64,000 nt of DNA, from the NCBI RefSeq assembly GCF_011065895.1, contig NZ_JAALCR010000011.1, positions 124,001 to 188,000 on the forward strand, written 5' to 3'. Each line of letters begins with the position of its first letter. Within the stretch, counting starts at the first letter, position 1. Under the pieces are notes generated by a model that was given only the letters and a program-made list of their open reading frames with translations, made no database searches and was not told where the DNA came from. This document shows, one piece after another, positions 180-61,874 of this stretch. The translations under genes were made by a program, and so were the position numbers. The DNA comes from Paludisphaera rhizosphaerae. GTDB taxonomy: Bacteria; Planctomycetota; Planctomycetia; Isosphaerales; Isosphaeraceae.

Positions 180-590
180 CTTGGAGACTCCCTTCTCCCA
201 GGCATCCTTCCGCGTTCCGCCCCGAGTGCTCTCGCACGGGCCTCGCGGCGGGCGTCCCTCGTGAGTCTCGCCCGCACCGGGCGGCTTCAGCCGTCGGCGA
301 GGGCGGGTTCGGCGCGAATCCGCCGCCAAGGGTCCCTTACTACCACTGAGATTTCGGCCTTGACGCGTCTCGGCCTCCACTCCAATCCACCCCGGGCGCA
401 TCCCCTGGAGTGGGAAGCCGTCGCACCTTCGATTCAACTCGGACAATCCGCAGACCCGATACAACCTCTGTCGCGGCCCGCGAGGTCGTCCGCGTCCCCG
501 TTCCCTGGAGGCCCGGGACGCCCGCCGAGCAACGCGACGCGCCCCCACCGGGCGGTTGTCCCACGGGATGCCAGTCGTCGAGGCGAAAAA
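180..590. promoter_or_regulatory. Divergent intergenic region, no gene seen
   Basis: About 410 bases lie between the divergent LEPR-XLL gene and the export operon. The frame of the downstream gene stays open back to 261, but the lipoprotein signal at 591 marks the real start. No confident promoter boxes or RNA gene could be identified. It presumably carries promoters for both directions. Confidence 0.4.
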
Positions 591-3302
591 ATGGCCGAAT
601 TTACGCATAAGACCCCCCGCACGCCCCTCAAGCGGCTGGGCGCCCTGCCGGCCCTGCTCGCAGCGACGCTGGGCGTACTCCCTGGATGCACCCGCGAATT
701 CTTCCGCGAGTGGGCAAACCAGGACGTCTCCGAAGCGGTCTTCGAAAAGAGCCGCGACCCCCGATGGCGGCTGGACACGTTCTCGGTCGAGCCCCCCGCC
801 CTCTCTCGGTTCGCCGACCCCTACGATCAGGAATTCCCGCCAGCCCCTCCTGACGACCCGGCCGCCGAGGCCCTCTCCCCGGTCCCCCAATCGCCGGACA
901 ACCGGCTGATGATCCCGGTCGAGGGGACCGGCTACACGGCCATGCTCGAAGGGTGGCGGGAAGAACGCGAGGCAATGCGCCAGGACGAGCCGACCCCAAC
1001 CGCCCCGCCCGGCCCCTCCGGCGGCCCCTCGCCGTTCTCGCCGCCTAACCCGGCGACCTCAACGCCGGGGCCGAACACGTTAAAGCTCAACCGTCCCGCC
1101 CCCGGGCGAGATCCCAAGGCTTCTCCGGAACTTATGGCCGACGCTCGTACCGGAGGGATCCCTCGGCCACGATCGGCCGAGAGCTTCAAGCCGGTCATCC
1201 CGCCGCCGCAGCGGCAGGGAGACCCGGCCCTGACACGCACAGCCTATCAGGACGCCTTGCAAGACCCGCAGCGTCCCCTCACGCCGGCGCCGGCGGTCCC
1301 CCTGGACCCGAACCCCCGCGGCCGCGACGAGGCCGATCCGAACCTCCCGAGGCCGGGACAGATGGTCCCCGGCCGGGGCGACGGCGCCTTCACTGAGGGC
1401 CAGGCCGCCGAGCTGGCAGGGCTCCTCGTCCCCGAGACGACCCCGCTCGACGAGGAAGTCGCAGGCGGTCTGCCCAAGGGGTCGAAGTACTACAAAGTCA
1501 ACATGCAGCAGGCCTTCACCCTGGCCCTGATCAATAGCCGCTACTATCAGACCAACCTCGAAACGCTCTACAGCTCCGCGTTGGCTGTCACGCTGCAGCG
1601 GTTCGCGTTCCAGCCTCAGTTCTACGCCGGCATGTCGCCCCAGACCTCACCTCTGGGTGCCGGCTTCCCGGCCCTGAACCCCAGCAACGTCTTCAATTAC
1701 CAGACGCGGTACACCCCCGGCGGTCAGGTCTCGGCCTATCAGATCAGCGAGGTCGCCGGCGTCGGCAAACTACTCAACTCGGGCGGTCGAGTCCTGACCG
1801 GATTCGCCAACCAGCTCGTCTTCAACTTCGTGGGGAACAAGCCCTTCCAACCGACCGTCCAGTCGTCGCTCCCGCTGACTTTCGTTCAGCCCCTCCTCAG
1901 GGGAGGCGGCCGAGCCGTCACGCTGGAAGCCCTCACGTTGGCTGAGCGTTCGCTGCTCTACCAGGTCCGCGCCTTCGCCAAGTTCCGTCAGGAGTTCATC
2001 GTCTCGGTGCTCATCGCCGGGTCGGTCCAGAACCTCGGTTCGACGTTCAACCTGGCCGGCTTCTCTAGCGCAGGCAACACCGACCCGGTCGTCGGATTCA
2101 TCCCGCTGGTCCTCGACGCCGCTCAGATCGAGATCGATAAACGGAACGTCGCCACGCTGGAACAGGTCGTCAGCCTGTATGAAGAGTTGATCGACGGCGA
2201 GGCTTCAGGTCTGACGCAGCTCCAGGTCGACCAGGCGAAGAATCAGTTGGCCACCGGTCGTCGCACGCTGGCCTCGGACATCCTGACTTACCGCTACGGC
2301 CTCGATCAGTTCAAGATGCAGATGGGCCTGCCGACGGACACGCCGCTGACCGTCGATCTGGGGATCTACTATCCGTTCCGCGACGTCTTCCGCCAGATCG
2401 ACAACTGGCAGCGAAACCCCAAGCGAGACCTGAAGGAGTTGCCGGACATCGTCGGCAATCTCCCGGACCTGGAAGACGTCGTCCTCGACGGCCGATCGGT
2501 GCTCAGCCCATACAAGGGACCCAACGCCCAGTTGATCTCCGACGAGGACGGCCTCGAAGACATCCTTCAGTCTGGAGTGCGGATCGCCCTGGAGTATCGG
2601 CTCGACATGCTGAACAACCGGGCCCAGCTCTACGACGCCTGGCGACAAATCCGCTACCAGGCAAACTCTCTCAAAGGTATATTGAACGTGGGTCTGACCA
2701 ACCAGGTGTTGACTCCCCCCACGACCACCAACCCATTCGGCTTCATGTCCCAGGCCACTCAGATGAGCCTGGTGCTGAACGCGGAGCTTCCCTTGATCCG
2801 AGTCGCCGAGCGGAACAACTTCCGTCAAGCGATTATCAACTACCAAAGACAGCGTCGCAGTCTCCAAGCCTCGGAAGACGCCCTGAAACTGCAGATTCGG
2901 CAAGACATCCGCTCGATGCAAATCGCCTATATCAACTATGCGATCGCCAAGCAGCAGTTGGAGCTCCAGGCCCGACTGAAAGACCAGGCCTTCGAGCAGC
3001 TGGTGGCCCCGCCCCAGGCGACCTCGGGTCAGAACCTCGCCCAGAACGCCAACGCGGCCACCCAGAACCAGAACTTGCTTAGCGCTCAGAGCGGTCTGAT
3101 CAACTCCGAGGGGACGATCCTCAGCACCTGGCAGTCCTACGAGACCGCTCGACTCACCCTGTACCGCGACATCGGCACCTTGCCGTACGATGAATGGGAG
3201 GCGTTCAGTGAACTTTTCCCTGCAGAATACCGAGGCCCCAGCCTCGGCCCCGGCACAAGCACCCCGCGACCTGCCGCCGCTGCAGCGGCCGAAACGCCGT
3301 AA
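591..3302 (+). CDS. TolC-family outer membrane efflux lipoprotein
   Basis: A 903-residue outer-membrane channel protein of the TolC/OEP type, expected to be the exit duct for the adaptor and ABC transporter that follow. The frame is open upstream to 261, but ATG at 591 begins a lipoprotein signal: basic n-region, hydrophobic stretch and lipobox LPGC with Cys at residue 33. Residues about 35-290 are proline-rich and low in complexity, a long periplasmic or linker segment not found in E. coli TolC. The OEP part starts near residue 297 (KYYKVNMQQAFTLALINSRY) and ends with long amphipathic helices rich in Gln and Ala. The last 95 bases overlap the next gene in another frame. Confidence 0.87.
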   Translation: MAEFTHKTPRTPLKRLGALPALLAATLGVLPGCTREFFREWANQDVSEAVFEKSRDPRWRLDTFSVEPPALSRFADPYDQEFPPAPPDDPAAEALSPVPQSPDNRLMIPVEGTGYTAMLEGWREEREAMRQDEPTPTAPPGPSGGPSPFSPPNPATSTPGPNTLKLNRPAPGRDPKASPELMADARTGGIPRPRSAESFKPVIPPPQRQGDPALTRTAYQDALQDPQRPLTPAPAVPLDPNPRGRDEADPNLPRPGQMVPGRGDGAFTEGQAAELAGLLVPETTPLDEEVAGGLPKGSKYYKVNMQQAFTLALINSRYYQTNLETLYSSALAVTLQRFAFQPQFYAGMSPQTSPLGAGFPALNPSNVFNYQTRYTPGGQVSAYQISEVAGVGKLLNSGGRVLTGFANQLVFNFVGNKPFQPTVQSSLPLTFVQPLLRGGGRAVTLEALTLAERSLLYQVRAFAKFRQEFIVSVLIAGSVQNLGSTFNLAGFSSAGNTDPVVGFIPLVLDAAQIEIDKRNVATLEQVVSLYEELIDGEASGLTQLQVDQAKNQLATGRRTLASDILTYRYGLDQFKMQMGLPTDTPLTVDLGIYYPFRDVFRQIDNWQRNPKRDLKELPDIVGNLPDLEDVVLDGRSVLSPYKGPNAQLISDEDGLEDILQSGVRIALEYRLDMLNNRAQLYDAWRQIRYQANSLKGILNVGLTNQVLTPPTTTNPFGFMSQATQMSLVLNAELPLIRVAERNNFRQAIINYQRQRRSLQASEDALKLQIRQDIRSMQIAYINYAIAKQQLELQARLKDQAFEQLVAPPQATSGQNLAQNANAATQNQNLLSAQSGLINSEGTILSTWQSYETARLTLYRDIGTLPYDEWEAFSELFPAEYRGPSLGPGTSTPRPAAAAAAETP

Positions 3303-5169
3303 GGCCTCCTTCGGCAAGATTTTGGCTCTGGGTCTCGCCTCCCTCCTCGCGATCGGAGGCGTGGCCCTGGTCACCGTCCCGGGGTTGAGCAAGCCGGTCC
3401 GCGGCTTCTTCACCCCGACCACGATGGACATTATCCCCTTCGAGGTCAAACGAGGCGTCCTACCGATCACGGTCACCGAAAAGGGCTCCCTCGAAAGCGC
3501 CAAGAACGAGGACGTGTTCTGCCAGGTCGAGGGGACGACCACGATCATCACGATCCTCCCTGAAGGGACGAGGGTCAAGAAGGGGGACCTGGTCTGCGAA
3601 CTCGACTCGGCGACCCTCAAAGAGTCGCTCATCAATCAGCAGATCTCCACCCGCGGCGCCGAGGCCTCCTTCCAGCAGGCCAAGCTCACCCGCGAGGTGG
3701 CTGAGATCGCCGTTGAGGAATACGTCAAAGGCATTTACGCCCAGGACAAGGCGACCATCAACGGCGAAATCAAGCTGGCTGAATCCGACCTCGCCCGCGC
3801 CGCCGACCGCGTCGAATGGGCCAACCGGATGTTCGACAAGGGCTACGTCTCCCGCGCCCAGAAGGTCTCTGAAGAGCTGAACCTCCAGAAGGCCCAGTTC
3901 GCCCTGGAACAGGCCAACAGCAAGCTCGACGTCCTTGAGAAGTTCACCAAGGAAAAGACCATCAAGGAGTTGCGCTCCGACGTCGAGAAGGCCCTCTCCG
4001 ACGAAAAGGCCAAGGAACAGACCTACATGCTGGAAAAGGAGAAGGAGGCGAAGTACGAGCGGCAGATCTCCAACTGCAAGCTCTTCGCCCCCGGCGACGG
4101 TCTGGTCGTCTACGCCAACGACCCCGGCCGCAACTTCGGCTCCAACACCCCCCAGATCGAGGAAGGCGCGAGCGTCCGCGAACGTCAGAAGATCTTCAGC
4201 CTGCCAGACATCGGCAACATGCAGGTGAACGCCAAGATCCATGAGTCGCAGATCGACAAGATCACGCCCAAGATGAAGGCCAAGATCCGCGTCGACGCCT
4301 TCGCCGATACGGAACTGGATGGGGCCGTCGTCGACGTCGCCCCCCTGCCCGACCCGTCGAGCTTCTTTAGCTCCGACATCAAGGTCTACACCTCGCACAT
4401 CAAAATCGACAGCGCTCTGGCGGGCCTCCGCCCGGGTATGAATGCCGAGGTCGTGATCCTGGTCGACCGCAAGGAAGACGTGCTGACCGTCCCCGTTCAG
4501 GCCGTCCTGGAGTTCAAGGGGAAAGACCACCTCGCCGTGAAGGGGGCCGAGGGCTACACCCGCAAGGAAGTCAGCCTCGGCGCGACGAACGACAAGTACG
4601 TCCAGATCACCGAGGGCGTCACCGCCGGCCAGGTCGTCGCCTTGAATCCGGTCTCCCTCCTGAGCGACGACGAGAAGCGCGAGCTCTTCTCCGTGGGTCG
4701 CGCGGGCTCGAAGAAGGGTGCCGAAGGCAAGGAAGGCGAAGCCAAGGGCGAGGCCGGCCCCGGCGGACCAGTAGCAGCCGGCGGACCGGCCGGCCCTGGC
4801 GGACCCGGCGGGGGATCGCCTGATGCAGCCAAGGCCAAAGGCAAGGGCGCCGGTGCCCGCCGTGGCGGCGCGGGCGGTGGGATGGGCGCCATGGGCGCCA
4901 TCTTCCAGAAGCTGAGCGAGGAAGATCGAAGCAAGCTGCGCACGGCCACCGAAGAGGAGAGGGCCGCCATCCTTCAGAAGGCTGGAGCTACGCCCGAGCA
5001 GATCGACCAGATGCGCCAGATGCGTCAGCAGGGCGGCGGCGGTGGTGGCGGATTCGGCGGCGGTCCGGGCGGTCCGGGCGGCGGCGGCGGCCGTCGCGGC
5101 GGTGGTCCGGGCGGCGGTGGTCCGGGTGGTGGTGGTGGCGGCGGCGGCGAAGGGCCGGGAGGCAACTGA
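3208..5169 (+). CDS. HlyD/MacA-like membrane fusion (adaptor) protein
   Basis: A 653-residue periplasmic adaptor expected to link the TolC-like duct to the MacB-type transporter. GTG at 3208 is chosen because GGGAGG lies six bases upstream; ATG at 3190 is the alternative and has no such site. Order of parts: short cytosolic N-terminus, one membrane helix (about residues 36-60), first half of a lipoyl-like hairpin, a long coiled coil (about 135-280), second half of the hairpin (FAPGDGLVVYAN), beta-barrel and membrane-proximal domains. The last 150 residues are unusual: two Gly/Pro-rich tracts flank a charged helical segment (FQKLSEEDRSKLRTATEEER). It belongs to the same subfamily as the proteins at 14837 and 59970. 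Confidence 0.87.
   Translation: MNFSLQNTEAPASAPAQAPRDLPPLQRPKRRKASFGKILALGLASLLAIGGVALVTVPGLSKPVRGFFTPTTMDIIPFEVKRGVLPITVTEKGSLESAKNEDVFCQVEGTTTIITILPEGTRVKKGDLVCELDSATLKESLINQQISTRGAEASFQQAKLTREVAEIAVEEYVKGIYAQDKATINGEIKLAESDLARAADRVEWANRMFDKGYVSRAQKVSEELNLQKAQFALEQANSKLDVLEKFTKEKTIKELRSDVEKALSDEKAKEQTYMLEKEKEAKYERQISNCKLFAPGDGLVVYANDPGRNFGSNTPQIEEGASVRERQKIFSLPDIGNMQVNAKIHESQIDKITPKMKAKIRVDAFADTELDGAVVDVAPLPDPSSFFSSDIKVYTSHIKIDSALAGLRPGMNAEVVILVDRKEDVLTVPVQAVLEFKGKDHLAVKGAEGYTRKEVSLGATNDKYVQITEGVTAGQVVALNPVSLLSDDEKRELFSVGRAGSKKGAEGKEGEAKGEAGPGGPVAAGGPAGPGGPGGGSPDAAKAKGKGAGARRGGAGGGMGAMGAIFQKLSEEDRSKLRTATEEERAAILQKAGATPEQIDQMRQMRQQGGGGGGGFGGGPGGPGGGGGRRGGGPGGGGPGGGGGGGGEGPGGN
4690..5166 (+). 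repeat. Glycine-rich low-complexity coding tract
   Basis: The 3' end of the adaptor gene is dominated by GGC/GGT/GGN codons giving polyglycine with scattered Pro and Arg, split by one helical block at about 4895-5025. It is a coding simple-sequence tract, prone to length change, and has no counterpart at the C-terminus of the sister adaptors in this window. Confidence 0.75.
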
Positions 5170-5171
5170 TC

Positions 5172-6005
<834 letters not shown>

Positions 6006-6066
6006 CCCTCGTTCGACTCGACAGCCCCGCCCTCCTTCTCGACCGCCACCGTCAAGGATCGAACTC

Positions 6067-7344
6067 ATGCGACGCATCTGGCGCGGCCTGAAACTCGGCA
6101 TGAAGAGCCTGTTGCTGCACAAGCTGCGGTCGGGCCTGACGGTGCTCGGCATCGTCTTCGGCGTCGCCGCCGTTATCTCGATGCTGGCGATCGCCGAGGG
6201 CTCCAGCCGAGACGCCTTGCAACGCATTCAGGCCCTGGGCGCCACCAACATCATCGTCCGCTCGGTCAAGCCCAGCGACGAGGCCCAGGCCACCGGCGGC
6301 CGCCCCTCGCGCATCCTGAATTACGGGCTCAAATACGACGACTACGACCGGATCATGTCGACCGTGCCGACGATTAAAAAGGCGCTGCCGATCCGGGAGA
6401 TCCGGAAGCAGGTCCGTCGTCTCGAATACTTCCTCGACGGCCGCGTCGTGGGGACGACCCCGGATTACGCCGAGTTCAACATGCTCCAAATGGAGCGCGG
6501 CCGGTTCCTCACGGCGGCGGACAACGACAAGTACCAGAACTTCGCCGTGCTCGCCGCGACGACCGCCAAGACGCTCTTCCCCTACGAAGACCCGCTCAAT
6601 CAGACGGTCAAACTGGGCTCCGACTACTACACGGTCGTCGGGGTCACGAGGGAACGCGAAAGCTCCGCGGGCGTCGGCGGCAGTCTGGCGGCTCAGGACT
6701 TCAACAAGGACGTCTACATCCCGTTGAATACCTGCCGCGTTCGGTTCGGCGAGAAGATCGTCAACAACCGCTCGGGCTCCATGGAGGCGGAGGAGACGCA
6801 GCTCTCGCAGATCACTCTCCAGGTGAGCAGCACCGACGAGGTCCAGCCCACGGTTCCCGTCATCAAGGCGGCCTACGAGAGGTGGCACCCGAAGAAGGAC
6901 GTGGAGATGACCGTCCCCTACGACCTGTTGCTGGAGTCGCAACGGACGGCCCGACAGTTCAGCATCATCCTGGGAACGATCGCGGCGATCTCGCTGCTCG
7001 TCGGCGGCATCGGCATCATGAACATCATGCTGGCGACCGTCACCGAGCGCACCCGAGAGATCGGCATCCGCCGGGCCCTGGGGGCGAAGCGCAAGGACAT
7101 CACCCAGCAGTTCCTCATCGAGACGGTCGTGCTCTCCGGCGTGGGGGGCGTGCTGGGTGTTCTCCTCGGGGTGACGATCCCGATGGTGATGGTCTACTTC
7201 ATCCCCGACCAGAAGGCGTTCGTCACCGGACTGTCGGTGCTGCTGTCTTTCGGCATCTCGGTGGCTGTCGGGATTCTGTTCGGTTTGTATCCTGCGCGAC
7301 GCGCCGCGATGATGGATCCCATCGAGGCGCTGCGCCACGAATGA
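6067..7344 (+). CDS. MacB-type ABC transporter permease
   Basis: A 425-residue permease with the MacB fold: one N-terminal membrane helix (SGLTVLGIVFGVAAVISMLA, about 24-43), a large periplasmic MacB_PCD domain (about 45-290), then three C-terminal helices of the FtsX domain (starting FSIILGTIAAISLLVGGIGI). The conserved coupling segment ERTREIGIRRALGAKRKDI follows the second helix. AAGGA lies eight bases before the ATG. It is the last gene of the operon 591-7344, which therefore carries duct, adaptor, ATPase and permease: a complete MacAB-TolC-like exporter. Such exporters use the ATPase to drive periplasm-to-outside transport; the cargo is unknown. Confidence 0.92.
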   Translation: MRRIWRGLKLGMKSLLLHKLRSGLTVLGIVFGVAAVISMLAIAEGSSRDALQRIQALGATNIIVRSVKPSDEAQATGGRPSRILNYGLKYDDYDRIMSTVPTIKKALPIREIRKQVRRLEYFLDGRVVGTTPDYAEFNMLQMERGRFLTAADNDKYQNFAVLAATTAKTLFPYEDPLNQTVKLGSDYYTVVGVTRERESSAGVGGSLAAQDFNKDVYIPLNTCRVRFGEKIVNNRSGSMEAEETQLSQITLQVSSTDEVQPTVPVIKAAYERWHPKKDVEMTVPYDLLLESQRTARQFSIILGTIAAISLLVGGIGIMNIMLATVTERTREIGIRRALGAKRKDITQQFLIETVVLSGVGGVLGVLLGVTIPMVMVYFIPDQKAFVTGLSVLLSFGISVAVGILFGLYPARRAAMMDPIEALRHE

Positions 7345-14836: not shown

Positions 14837-16804
14837 ATGCAAGACCAACCGATCTCAATCCCTCGCATCGATCTGGAACGCCCCCCCGCTCGTTCATCGA
14901 TCTTGGGACGGCTCGCGGGGTTGCTCAGCGTGCTCGGTGTGCTCGGGGCCGGAGCCTGGGCGTGGGAGCAAGGTTATCGCCCCTCGTGGCTCCAGAGCAA
15001 CCAGGCCCTCCCGTTCGAACTGGTCGAGGTCGACCGTGGCGACATCGCCGATTACGTCGTCGAATACGGAACCGTGGAGAGCGCGTCGGACGCCGTCGTT
15101 CGTTGCCAGGTTGAAGCTCTGATCGGCCTGGTCGGCGGCAGTAATTCGAACGGCACGACCAAGGGCTCAGGCTCGACCTCTGGCTCGACTCAATCGTCGA
15201 GCTCTCAATCCACGACGCCCACCACCACAACGTCTTCCACCAAAAGCTCATCCTCGTCGACGGCCAAGAGCGGATCGAGTACGAGCGGGTCGAGTACGAG
15301 CAAATCGAGCACGAGCGGGACGTCCGGGACGAGCTCTTCAAGCACCACGTCCTCAAGCTCCAGCACTTCGTCCTCAAGCTCCTCGGGAACCTCGACGAGC
15401 AAGAAGCCGACGATCCGCAGCTTCAACTACACGGTCGCCAAGTACACCCCCCTGAAGCGGACGACCGCGACCTCGAAATCATCGTCGACGTCCGGCAGCA
15501 ATTCCGGTTCGAGTGGTTCGGGCGGCGGCGGAGGAGGCGGCGGCGGCCGAGGCGGTCGCGGCGGCGGAGGCGGCGGCGGGATGGAGGAGAAGCCCGGGTC
15601 GACCCGAATCATCTCGATCCTCCCTGAGGGAACTCACGTCAAGCCGGGGGACGTGGTCTGCGAGTTGGACTCGGCCTCTTATCGCGATGAGGTGAAGGCT
15701 CAGCAGGTCCGCTGGCTCCAGGCCAAGTCGTTCGTCGAACAGGCGAATGCGAACCTCGCCGTCAACGAGATCACCTTGCGCGAGTATCGCGACGGGATCT
15801 ATCCGCAGGACATGCAGCTCATCCGTCAGTATGTGCAAACCTGCGAGATCGACCGCGACCGCGCCGCCCGCAACGTCGAGTGGTCGCGCACGGTGCAACA
15901 AAAGGGCCTCCGCACCAGCTCCCAGCTCAAGGCCGACGAGCTCTCCCTCGACCAGACCGATTTCGTCCTCAGCGAGGCCAAGGGGATGCTCGAACGGCTG
16001 GAGAAGTACACCGGCCCGAAGAACCTCAAGGAACTTGAGGCCAAGCTAGCCTCGATCCGCGCGGACAAGCTCGCCCAGGACGCCAGCTTCGCCCTCGAGG
16101 ACGAACGCCTCCGCCGGCTGGAGAAGAACGTCGCGGCCTGCACCCTCCGCGCGCCGGGCGAGGGCATCGTGGTTTACGTCAACCAGACTAACGGCTGGGG
16201 ACGCACCGAAGCAGGCATTCAGGAAGGGGTGACGGTCCGACAGGACCAGCCCATCTTCCAGCTCCCCGACCCGAAGCGGATGCGGATCAAGGCCCGAATC
16301 AACGAGACGAAGGTTTCACTCCTGCGTCCGGGACAGGGCTGCACGATCCGAATCGATGCATTCCCCGACCGCCCGCTTCAAGGCAAGGTGACCGACGTCA
16401 CGGCAATCGCAGCCCCGGTCAACGGCCCGTTGTCCGACGTCCGCGGCTATTACGCCCTGATCGACGTCGTCGACGGCTTCGAGGACCTTCGCCCCGGCCT
16501 CAGCGCTGAGGTCTCCTTCCTGCACGACCGTCGTTTGCATGTCGAGCGCGTCCCCCTGAACTCCGTCCGCCAGGTTGGAGGCCAGTCGTTCGTGGCCGTT
16601 CATGAGCCGGCCTCTGGCCCCGAGGGTAAGCCGGCCTACCGATGGCAAAAGGTCGACCTGGGCCTGAGTGATTCGGATTACGTCGAGGTCGTCTCGGGCG
16701 TCCGCCAGGGAGACCGCGTGATCGCCGACCCGACCACGCTGGCTCCCCCCTCCCCGACCAAGCCCGGTTCGTCGGGCTCGGAGGTCGCTTCCGTCTCGCC
16801 TTGA
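14837..16804 (+). CDS. HlyD/MacA-like adaptor protein with a large low-complexity insert
   Basis: A 655-residue paralog of the adaptor at 3208, sharing the sequence VxCQVE, ILPEGTxVKxGDxVCELDSA, the coiled coil and the APGxGxVVYxN hairpin. A membrane helix is at about residues 22-44. Unlike the sister, about 160 residues of Ser/Thr then Gly repeats (94-253) interrupt the first half of the lipoyl-like hairpin, exactly between its two conserved blocks. ATG 14837 is chosen because the coding of the membrane helix follows soon after; an upstream in-frame ATG exists at 14732. No ABC or TolC gene is adjacent, so it may share the pump of the 591-7344 operon or use one elsewhere. Confidence 0.83.
   Translation: MQDQPISIPRIDLERPPARSSILGRLAGLLSVLGVLGAGAWAWEQGYRPSWLQSNQALPFELVEVDRGDIADYVVEYGTVESASDAVVRCQVEALIGLVGGSNSNGTTKGSGSTSGSTQSSSSQSTTPTTTTSSTKSSSSSTAKSGSSTSGSSTSKSSTSGTSGTSSSSTTSSSSSTSSSSSSGTSTSKKPTIRSFNYTVAKYTPLKRTTATSKSSSTSGSNSGSSGSGGGGGGGGGRGGRGGGGGGGMEEKPGSTRIISILPEGTHVKPGDVVCELDSASYRDEVKAQQVRWLQAKSFVEQANANLAVNEITLREYRDGIYPQDMQLIRQYVQTCEIDRDRAARNVEWSRTVQQKGLRTSSQLKADELSLDQTDFVLSEAKGMLERLEKYTGPKNLKELEAKLASIRADKLAQDASFALEDERLRRLEKNVAACTLRAPGEGIVVYVNQTNGWGRTEAGIQEGVTVRQDQPIFQLPDPKRMRIKARINETKVSLLRPGQGCTIRIDAFPDRPLQGKVTDVTAIAAPVNGPLSDVRGYYALIDVVDGFEDLRPGLSAEVSFLHDRRLHVERVPLNSVRQVGGQSFVAVHEPASGPEGKPAYRWQKVDLGLSDSDYVEVVSGVRQGDRVIADPTTLAPPSPTKPGSSGSEVASVSP
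15116..15595 (+). repeat. Ser/Thr and Gly simple-sequence insert in the adaptor gene
   Basis: The tract encodes runs of Ser and Thr (about 15150-15420), a short non-repetitive piece (IRSFNYTVAKYTPLKRT, about 15412-15465) and a Gly-rich run (15480-15580). Codons such as AGC, TCG, ACG and GGC recur with small changes, as expected of slippage growth. It is in frame and has no stops. Confidence 0.8.
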
Positions 16805-59969: not shown

Positions 59970-61457
59970 TCAGTGCAAAGCGGCGATCGGGCCGTCCGGT
60001 TGAGCGGCCGAGGTCGGTTCGGCGGCCGGAACGGGGACGGGCTCGGCCAGGTCGTCGGCCAGCTCGTCAGGACGGGGGTTGAGCACGACCTGCTCCCCTT
60101 CTTCAAGCCCCTGGGAGACCTCCAGGAGGTCAAGGGTCGCCTGGCCGACGGCCACCCGACGTTTCTCCAGGCTCCCACCGTCACCGCGAACGACGTAGCA
60201 GTAATCGCCGTCCTGCTCGGTCGCCACCGCCTCGACGGGAACGGCCAGGACGTTGCTCTTGGGAGGCATGGTCAGGTCGACTCGCGCAGTCATTCCCGGC
60301 ATCAACTCGCGGCCGGCTCCCTGGTCGAGCCTCACAATGCTCTCGAAATAGCGAACGTCGGAGCGGTCGTCGAAAACGGGAAGGGGCGAGACCGAGGTCA
60401 CGCGGCCGGTGACCGATACGTCCGGGGCCCCCTCGAAGGCGATCCGGGCCCTCATCCCTCGCTTCACCCGATCGACCACCGACTCGTGCAGCATCGCCAC
60501 GACCTCCATCTGCGAGAGATCGGGCAAATAGAAGAGGTCCTGCTTCTGGTGCACTGACATCCCCGGCTCGATCACGATCCCGCGGCGGGCGTCGCTAGCG
60601 TAGATCAGGTAGCCGTCGTGCGGGGCCCGAATGGTGCAAAGCTCAACCTGCTTTTCCAGCTTCGCAAGACGGTCGAGGTTCCGGGCCAGCCGCGTGTCCT
60701 GATAGCGAAGGTTGGCCTCCTTGGCCAGCATCGCCCCCTCAAGCTGCTTGATGACCTTGGACGCCGTGAAGCGTTCGAAGAGGGTGAGAGCGCCCTTGGC
60801 CCTGTCGAGCGCCACCTGGGCCTTGGCGTTCGTCTGGGTTTCCGTCTTCAGGACGCTGGCGGCGACGTAGCCCTTGGCGTTCATCTTGGTCGCCCAGTCG
60901 AGCCGGTCCTTGCTGCGGCTCAACTCGGACTCAGCCAGGGCGATCAGACGCTGATGATCCTTGACCGTCTCGGCCATCAGGCCGTTGCGGTATTCGTTGA
61001 TGGCCAACCTGGCCACATCCAGCTCAAGCTCGCCCTGGTGGTGATCGGCCCGAGAGCGTTCGACGGTCATCCGTTGCTGGCGAAGGAGTTCCTCGTAGCT
61101 CGAGGAATCGAGAGTCGCCAGGACGTCCCCCTTCTTCACCCGGCTGCCGTCGGGGACGACGGTCAGCAGCGTCGACGCTCCGCCGGCGGAGAGGGCGCGG
61201 CCCATCACGCCGATGCTGATACTCTCAAGTTCGCATTCGACGACCGTCCGCTTGGAGCTTTCCAACCGGCCGGGAGTCGTCAACGACCCCTCCAGAACGG
61301 TTCGGCTCACCGGCGCGAACTGATACTTCACCGTGAGGTCTCGCGGGCGACCAGCGCCCGGCAGGCGATATCCCGCAGCGTACGCCCAGATCGAACCGGC
61401 CGCGACGGTCGCCGCGATCAGGCCGAGAGACGTGGAGACTCTCTTTGAGGCGGGCAT
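59970..61457 (-). CDS. HlyD/MacA-like adaptor protein, third paralog
   Basis: A 495-residue adaptor of the same subfamily as those at 3208 and 14837. It has a membrane helix (about residues 9-27), VECELES and VVPDGSRVKKGDVLATLDSS (first lipoyl half), a coiled coil (about 125-255), IRAPHDGYLIYASDARRG (second half), and barrel and membrane-proximal domains. Between the two parts of the first lipoyl half there is an insert of about 15-20 residues (GVMGRALSAGGAS), a smaller version of the one at 14837. AGGAG lies seven bases before the ATG at 61457. No ABC, RND or TolC gene is adjacent. Confidence 0.87.
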   Translation of the reverse strand: MPASKRVSTSLGLIAATVAAGSIWAYAAGYRLPGAGRPRDLTVKYQFAPVSRTVLEGSLTTPGRLESSKRTVVECELESISIGVMGRALSAGGASTLLTVVPDGSRVKKGDVLATLDSSSYEELLRQQRMTVERSRADHHQGELELDVARLAINEYRNGLMAETVKDHQRLIALAESELSRSKDRLDWATKMNAKGYVAASVLKTETQTNAKAQVALDRAKGALTLFERFTASKVIKQLEGAMLAKEANLRYQDTRLARNLDRLAKLEKQVELCTIRAPHDGYLIYASDARRGIVIEPGMSVHQKQDLFYLPDLSQMEVVAMLHESVVDRVKRGMRARIAFEGAPDVSVTGRVTSVSPLPVFDDRSDVRYFESIVRLDQGAGRELMPGMTARVDLTMPPKSNVLAVPVEAVATEQDGDYCYVVRGDGGSLEKRRVAVGQATLDLLEVSQGLEEGEQVVLNPRPDELADDLAEPVPVPAAEPTSAAQPDGPIAALH

Positions 61458-61874
61458 CGGGTGACTCCTCTTCCATCGCATGTTCAGGCCGCACGTCGCA
61501 AAGGGGGGCGGGGCGACGCGCTTCAGTCGGCGGGGGTCGAGGACGACGGCTTAAGGGCCCTCGTCCGGGGGGAAGCGGTCGAGGGGATTCCGGCTTCGGA
61601 ATCCACCATCGACTTCAGAATGTATCGGATCCCGACCGCCTTACCAAGAGTTCGCTCCTCAAGACGTTCGGCGATCCTTCACGTCGTTTGACTATCTTCA
61701 TCTTACCCACGATTGTAAAACAAAAATCTTACAGACGCAAGCCCAACGCAACGACCAGTACGCTCGCGCCGATTGCAGCGGGTTCCCTTGAGGGATTGAC
61801 CTCCAGGGCCATAATGGAAGGAATACGGCGCGCCGTCGGCGAGCCGGGAGTGATATCCAACCGGGGTCGGCAAC
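61458..61874. promoter_or_regulatory. Divergent intergenic region
   Basis: About 415 bases between the adaptor and the U32 peptidase genes. The block 61680-61745 is AT-richer than its surroundings (including AAACAAAAATCTTACAGA) and is the best place for promoters of either direction. No RNA gene or repeat was recognised. Confidence 0.35.

Follow-up and report, generated by a model that had tools for sequence, protein, structure and literature searches.

The lipoyl domains of 2-oxo acid dehydrogenases carry a short loop between their strands β1 and β2. In the available part of PMC6270654 this loop is described as a prominent, exposed site of partner recognition, which lies close to the lipoyl-lysine turn and matters for the binding of E1p. 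In periplasmic adaptor proteins the α-hairpin replaces the lipoyl-lysine turn or grows from it, according to the excerpt of PMC4446572. Variation among adaptors is described, in the excerpts of reviews that we used, as differences in hairpin length and as whole domains added or missing. The excerpts of PMC8277102, PMC4446572 and PMC13328181 mention no insert at the β1-β2 position of adaptors, and none at this place is described in the titles and abstract beginnings of open-licence PubMed Central papers that were searched, which is no proof of absence. Other adaptor loops are disordered or act at ring level: EmrA has a long disordered loop in its β-barrel (PMC4158417), and the gating loops of MacA work at the level of the ring (PMC13328181). 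These loops are placed elsewhere than the one considered here, and the excerpts describe no conserved island on linkers in them. HlyD-domain proteins of planctomycetes are also mentioned beside a second SecA in the excerpt of PMC4452313, with no bearing on the present gene.

The gene in question, which we call the c1 adaptor, occupies positions 14837–16804 of the + strand in a 64,000-nucleotide stretch of Paludisphaera rhizosphaerae DNA (the window) and encodes 655 residues in one frame. Its translation matches the Pfam families HlyD_D23 and HlyD_3, with 36.9 bits for PF16576 (cut-off 30) and 36 bits for PF13437 (cut-off 22.2), and scores 70.6 bits with TIGR01730, below the cut-off of 94.9; all three paralogous adaptors of the window belong to the HlyD/CusB families by Pfam. 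The AF2 model of c1 matches EmrA (4tko) with Z 17.4 over model residues 70–564 and MacA (9qgy_G) with Z 16.4 over residues 70–638, and AcrA and MexA entries are also among the matches. By profile and fold, c1 is a periplasmic adaptor protein of the HlyD/MacA/AcrA superfamily, with the same domain order and fold as MacA, EmrA and AcrA/MexA. However, where MacA has a tight turn without extra residues, c1 proteins carry 101–249 of them, and, unlike the loop of 2-oxo acid dehydrogenases at the same position of the fold, these form a peptide between two disordered arms. Neither the place nor the kind of this insert appears in the review excerpts or in the titles and abstract beginnings searched.

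The hydrophobic N-terminal segment of residues 23–44 (14903–14968, +) is modelled as a helix with low confidence. It is a probable membrane anchor, and would leave the remainder of the adaptor in the periplasm. Helices 280–355 and 361–433, with pLDDT mostly >90, are predicted between strands 256–277 and 436–475 and make up the α-helical hairpin between the lipoyl halves (residues 280–433; 15674–16135, +). An NGWGR loop (window 16184–16213, residues 450–459) is found in the second lipoyl half of c1 orthologs and contains a c1-specific Trp in 93% of c1; the alignment would place it approximately at the Gln209 loop of the MacA gating ring, as that loop is described in the excerpt of PMC13328181. 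The core match of two orthologs (G034:C617 and G037:C149, loci L046 and L050) holds one TGA, outside the insert; the protein may end early there, or the base may be a sequencing error.

In c1, 160 residues in one open frame (residues 94–253; 15116–15595, +) separate CQVE from PGSTRIISILPEGT, in the β1-β2 loop of the lipoyl domain. The insertion point, between VxCxVE and GxTxIIxILPEGT, is shared by the three paralogs. The c2 paralog (3190–5169, +) reads VFCQVE followed at once by GTTTIITILPEGT, so that the two blocks touch between 3531 and 3532 and the insert has 0 residues. The c3 paralog (59970–61481, −) reads VECELE, then SISIGVMGRALSAG, then GASTLLTVVPDG, with the 14 residues of SISIGVMGRALSAG (61182–61223, −) between the blocks. 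A preliminary description of this DNA had reported 0, about 15–20 and about 160 extra residues at one insertion point; the common point and the values 0 and 160 stand, and the third is 14.

The same description regarded all 160 residues as low-complexity sequence, which holds for the two arms but not for a conserved stretch between them nor for the edges. The conserved left edge VVRCQVEALIGLVGG (residues 87–101; 15095–15139, +) includes β1 of the lipoyl domain. It is followed by the left low-complexity arm (residues 102–189; 15140–15403, +), Ser/Thr-rich in the window copy, then by the conserved island KPTIRSFNYTVAKYTPLK (residues 190–207; 15404–15457, +), which is seen in the ortholog alignment, the profile and pN/pS, and by the right low-complexity arm (residues 208–249; 15458–15583, +), Gly-rich in the window copy. 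The conserved right edge EEKPGSTRIISI (residues 250–261; 15584–15619, +) contains the beginning of β2. The edges of the insert, EALIGLVGG and EEKPGSTRI, are also kept among c1 orthologs, and pN/pS of the left edge is 0.23 within the genus. The island, which the preliminary description had missed, is the part of the insert most likely to act.

The position of the insert in the fold was obtained in two ways. When the three paralogs and two orthologs are combined in a profile, it matches E. coli MacA with E 2.6e-25 and places the site in the turn after β1 of the lipoyl domain, between S69 and G70 of chain 9qgy_G. In the AF2 model of c3 (mean pLDDT 72), which is better determined than that of c1 and where the hairpin is formed, the loop 89–100 lies with pLDDT <50 between β1 (78–82) and β2 (103–108) and holds most of the 14 insert residues. 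Since the site is the β1-β2 turn in both the MacA mapping and the c3 model, the insert lengthens this loop and breaks no packed strand. Hence the site is not the normally tightly packed part that had been supposed at first; its counterpart in 2-oxo acid dehydrogenase lipoyl domains is the exposed loop of PMC6270654 (available part). The supposition that the insert loops out agrees with the c1 model, calculated from 7 alignment rows, in which residues 90–254 have pLDDT <50 and are predicted to be disordered. Strands 87–89 and 256–261 flank the insert there, with a block pLDDT of only 53 and 54–72, so that the lipoyl hairpin of c1 is modelled, though not firmly. As the loop is near the lysine turn and the α-hairpin replaces that turn, the insert would be expected to leave the domain close to the foot of the hairpin.

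The length of the insert was followed in 45 family genomes, the window's own included, and in relatives outside the family, with part of the matches fetched; the lengths for c2- and c3-type matches, fetched in part only, are those of the fetched rows. The c1 insert has 101–249 residues in all 37 rows with both edges readable. Seven of the 44 rows were left out of this count because the contig ends before or within the site (L026, L051, L054, L057, L064, L066, L076). L006 (wrong frame) and the second partial frames in L109 and L119 were also dropped from the length table. In the c2 group the insert is exactly 0 in 33/33 family rows, and the seven other-family rows of the c2 table have 0–6 residues. 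In the c3 group it is 14 in 17 of the 19 rows, 13 in one and 5 in another (L005, distant). Adaptors of other families have 0–6 residues at the site in 16/16 loci; these come from the best non-family matches that could be made into loci, and L154 and L155 among them repeat the genes L028 and L027, respectively, of the length table. Of the 101 core sequences placed in a tree, the 43 rows of c1 form one clade (support 100/100), the 18 rows of c3 another (100/99), and the 33 c2 family rows group together (98/99); with the seven other-family rows included, the c2 label is not one clade (2 changes). Thus, among the relatives fetched, insert length follows ortholog group, and the site, whose emptiness in all orthologs would have overturned the preliminary description, is filled in all readable c1 orthologs. 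Plasmid records gave 59 entries with distant adaptors only, all <60% identity, and viral contigs gave no further relatives for a deeper alignment.

In many rows the c3 insert (loci L108–L123; window 61182–61223, −) reads xIG[VI]xGxxLxAG and is of near-constant length, unlike that of c1. Its left half resembles the left edge EALIGLVGG of c1, and the sequences may have a common origin. The c2 adaptor ends in a long Gly/Pro-rich tail (residues about 500–659), another low-complexity arm. The c1 ortholog of G008 (L026, L077) has a second insert of ~25 residues right after EGTEVKP, in the next turn (β3-β4); its three Cys, two of them as CxxC, could bind metal.

The arms of c1 change from species to species. 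In the 36 orthologs with both arms, the left arm, counted from the left edge, has 61–196 residues (median 101.5) and the right one 20–66 (median 43.5), with Ser+Thr ranging over 5%–61% of the arms and Gly over 11%–66%. All six genomes of the genus differ, their inserts being 124, 132, 141, 154, 160 and 170 residues long. One of these species is Paludisphaera soli (record L012, Isosphaeraceae), and the identical protein (100% identity) occurs in G004. The shortest c1 insert, of 101 residues, is that of copy L068 in G006, where the arms show little repetition by eye and the island is still there. The arms look like linkers because their length and composition drift across orthologs; they would be selected, if at all, for flexibility. 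An assembly error or frame noise is an unlikely source of the insert, its frame being open in 37/37 orthologs with both edges.

The window copy taken alone invites another explanation, in which a Ser/Thr periplasmic arm, glycosylated or passive, has grown by slippage and has no docking role. Its left arm consists of 47% Ser and 22% Thr, and lengths vary among species of one genus, as such growth would have it. In other orthologs, however, the arms are Gly- or Ala-rich, and Ser+Thr falls below 20% in 11/36. Because the arms change so freely in length and composition, a glycosylated Ser/Thr arm, suggested in the preliminary description, is not a common feature. That description had also expected slippage-prone DNA to produce length variation. 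Lengths do differ between species, but the insert DNA is weakly repetitive (a 15-mer present 3.4 times, a 21-mer and a 12-mer twice each, and a single GGC-like run, 59 bases long), and the arms of the window copy mix their Ser codons (TCG 18, AGC 14, TCC 10, TCA 6, AGT 4, TCT 4). With all six in use, slippage of a single codon is insufficient as an explanation. A passive arm also leaves unexplained why an 18-residue island is kept in every readable ortholog, and we consider this reading improbable.

The island has the consensus KPxIRSF[ST]YxVxP[HY]xPLR and is present in 42/42 c1 orthologs with the region readable, in 40 by pattern and in two (L063, L071), which escaped the pattern, by eye; two of the 44 loci were excluded, L075 because it is a c2 paralog and L076 because its contig is cut. 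The island's Pro, Ser and Phe are invariant in all 42, while Arg is found in 39, Val in 38, Tyr in 35 and Ile in 35. Conservation is looser in the PHxPLR half: Pro in 26, His in 26 or Tyr in 16, Pro in 35, Leu in 32, Arg in 29 or Lys in 8. In the named records L012 and L013 the island is kept though everything around residues 190–207 changes. Codons at its conserved positions vary synonymously. Within the genus the island has a pN/pS of 0.29 and the folded core one of 0.275; for 14 members of the family the values are 0.44 and 0.55, with synonymous sites near saturation. Purifying selection thus acts on the island much as it does on the core.

A profile of 24 positions, derived from 24 islands of family members, was used to find further copies. 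In 13 family genomes it marks one place each (two in G006, both c1) and no place outside c1 frames at E <0.01; weaker places, with E 0.04–0.49, occur in G003, G010, G012 and G014. No copy of the island elsewhere, which might act as a competing partner, was thus seen in these 13 genomes at that threshold. At E 0.001, among 297 genomes of the class, the profile finds the island in 43/45 family genomes and in 0 of the 252 non-family genomes sampled. The two family genomes with no match, G033 and G036, have assemblies that are 83% and 77% complete. G041 gives a second place, in a 357-aa frame, and the place in G032 lies in a 409-aa frame on a contig other than that of its core match. Because the profile was built from the family's own islands, matches in the source genomes arise by construction, and what is informative is that genomes carry close to one copy each and that the 252 others give no match. 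The island is restricted to one clade and, in this sample, to one family.

Tethered short linear motifs consist of a conserved short segment between fast-changing disordered linkers, and the c1 insert has this form. The tether-like architecture guessed at in the preliminary description is thus borne out, as a conserved peptide between variable arms, and because the island lies between free arms we read it as such a motif. We suggest that c1 is a MacA/EmrA/AcrA-like adaptor anchored in the inner membrane, and that its β1-β2 loop has been enlarged into a tethered peptide, in which the 18-residue island stands between a long disordered arm on the left and a shorter one on the right. Both arms would serve as entropic linkers, with little depending on how long they are or what they are made of, and the island would be the working part. 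The pattern I-R-S-F-[ST]-Y-x-V, with its alternation Phe-x-Tyr-x-Val, followed by PHxPLR, suggests a short β-strand and an extended Pro segment, which would dock on the surface of a partner. Candidate partners are the adaptor subunit next to it, the transporter encoded in the linked MacB-type operon and some other protein of the envelope; docking would help to assemble or to hold the pump. We give about an even chance to a docking peptide tethered on two disordered linkers, with the island as its working part.

Conservation of the island could equally come from docking inside the same chain. The island would then be a structural strand at the edge of its own lipoyl or β-barrel domain, and the arms would be the loops that allow it to reach there. 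The alternating F-x-Y-x-V pattern and a selection resembling that of the core are both in keeping with this, and the conserved left edge EALIGLVGG could be the pairing strand. Against it, a local strand would hardly call for arms that reach about 200 residues, and the c1 AF2 run shows the island as coil with pLDDT near 27 and no pairing, though the alignment of 7 rows is shallow. The island is moreover absent from the c2 and c3 paralogs and from the outgroup adaptors examined, and the hairpin of c3 is modelled all the same. The docking reading has points against it as well: the c1 run places the island on no surface, its second half is less strict than the first, and the 11 c1-specific conserved positions of the core form no evident cluster that could be taken for a docking site. 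We regard a strand of the same chain as possible but on the unlikely side; docking in trans is somewhat more likely, because such long arms are hard to explain otherwise.

A further alternative starts from the ring. Lipoyl-domain loops form gating rings in MacA and in MFS adaptors, according to the excerpts of PMC8277102 and PMC13328181, and the c1 insert is in another loop of the same domain. Six arms per hexamer might thus fill or gate the duct at the lipoyl ring, with the islands cohesive or gating like the gating-ring loops of MacA. About 1000 disordered residues inside the duct would, however, hinder export, and we find this the least probable of the readings. Glycosylation, duct gating and plain slippage are all less likely than the tethered docking peptide.

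The surroundings of c1 single out no partner. A set of linked pump genes at 261–7344 (+) comprises an OEP/TolC-like gene (261–3302), the c2 adaptor (3190–5169), an ABC ATPase (5172–6005) and a MacB-like permease (6067–7344), and this order is the same in the window and in six fetched stretches (L134–L139). In all of them the permease is followed by GreA, a pseudouridine synthase, an Fe/Mn superoxide dismutase and then c1; gaps of the ORF filter account for the synthase missing from the listing in L135 and L139 and for GreA, the synthase and c1 missing in L136. L134 differs in that its dismutase gene is on the opposite strand. Genes for an M10 peptidase and an AXE1-type esterase stand between the dismutase and c1 in the window's genus (window, L139), and both are also beside c1 in L012 and L013. 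By hand count among the matches listed, c1 lies ≤22 kb from a c2-type adaptor in 21 of the 22 genomes that have both on one contig, and far from it, still on one contig, in G030; in the remaining genomes the two are on different contigs or one is absent from the matches listed. No transporter gene adjoins c1 (14837), and the adaptor encoded within the linked MacB operon is c2. A MacA-like placement beside a MacB-type transporter and an outer membrane factor is therefore not seen for c1. The proximity of c1 to the MacB operon is linkage and no proof of a shared machine.

We also consider, tentatively and as a doubtful extension of docking in trans, that the adaptor throws out the peptide from its lipoyl ring on two disordered arms, six per hexamer, and that trans β-strand addition to a second machine links or regulates pumps. 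Possible examples of such a machine are the MacB-type pump nearby, which has an adaptor of its own, and a scaffold of the envelope that only this family has. Docking in trans is directly testable, because the peptide has only 18 residues and the arms look exchangeable.

The locus illustrates that a conserved motif can hide inside low-complexity sequence that is apparently junk. In 43 of the 45 family genomes, one ortholog group of adaptors carries a conserved peptide on disordered arms, in a lipoyl loop that should lie beside the foot of the hairpin. Should docking in trans prove true, this would be a new way to assemble, couple or control export machines.
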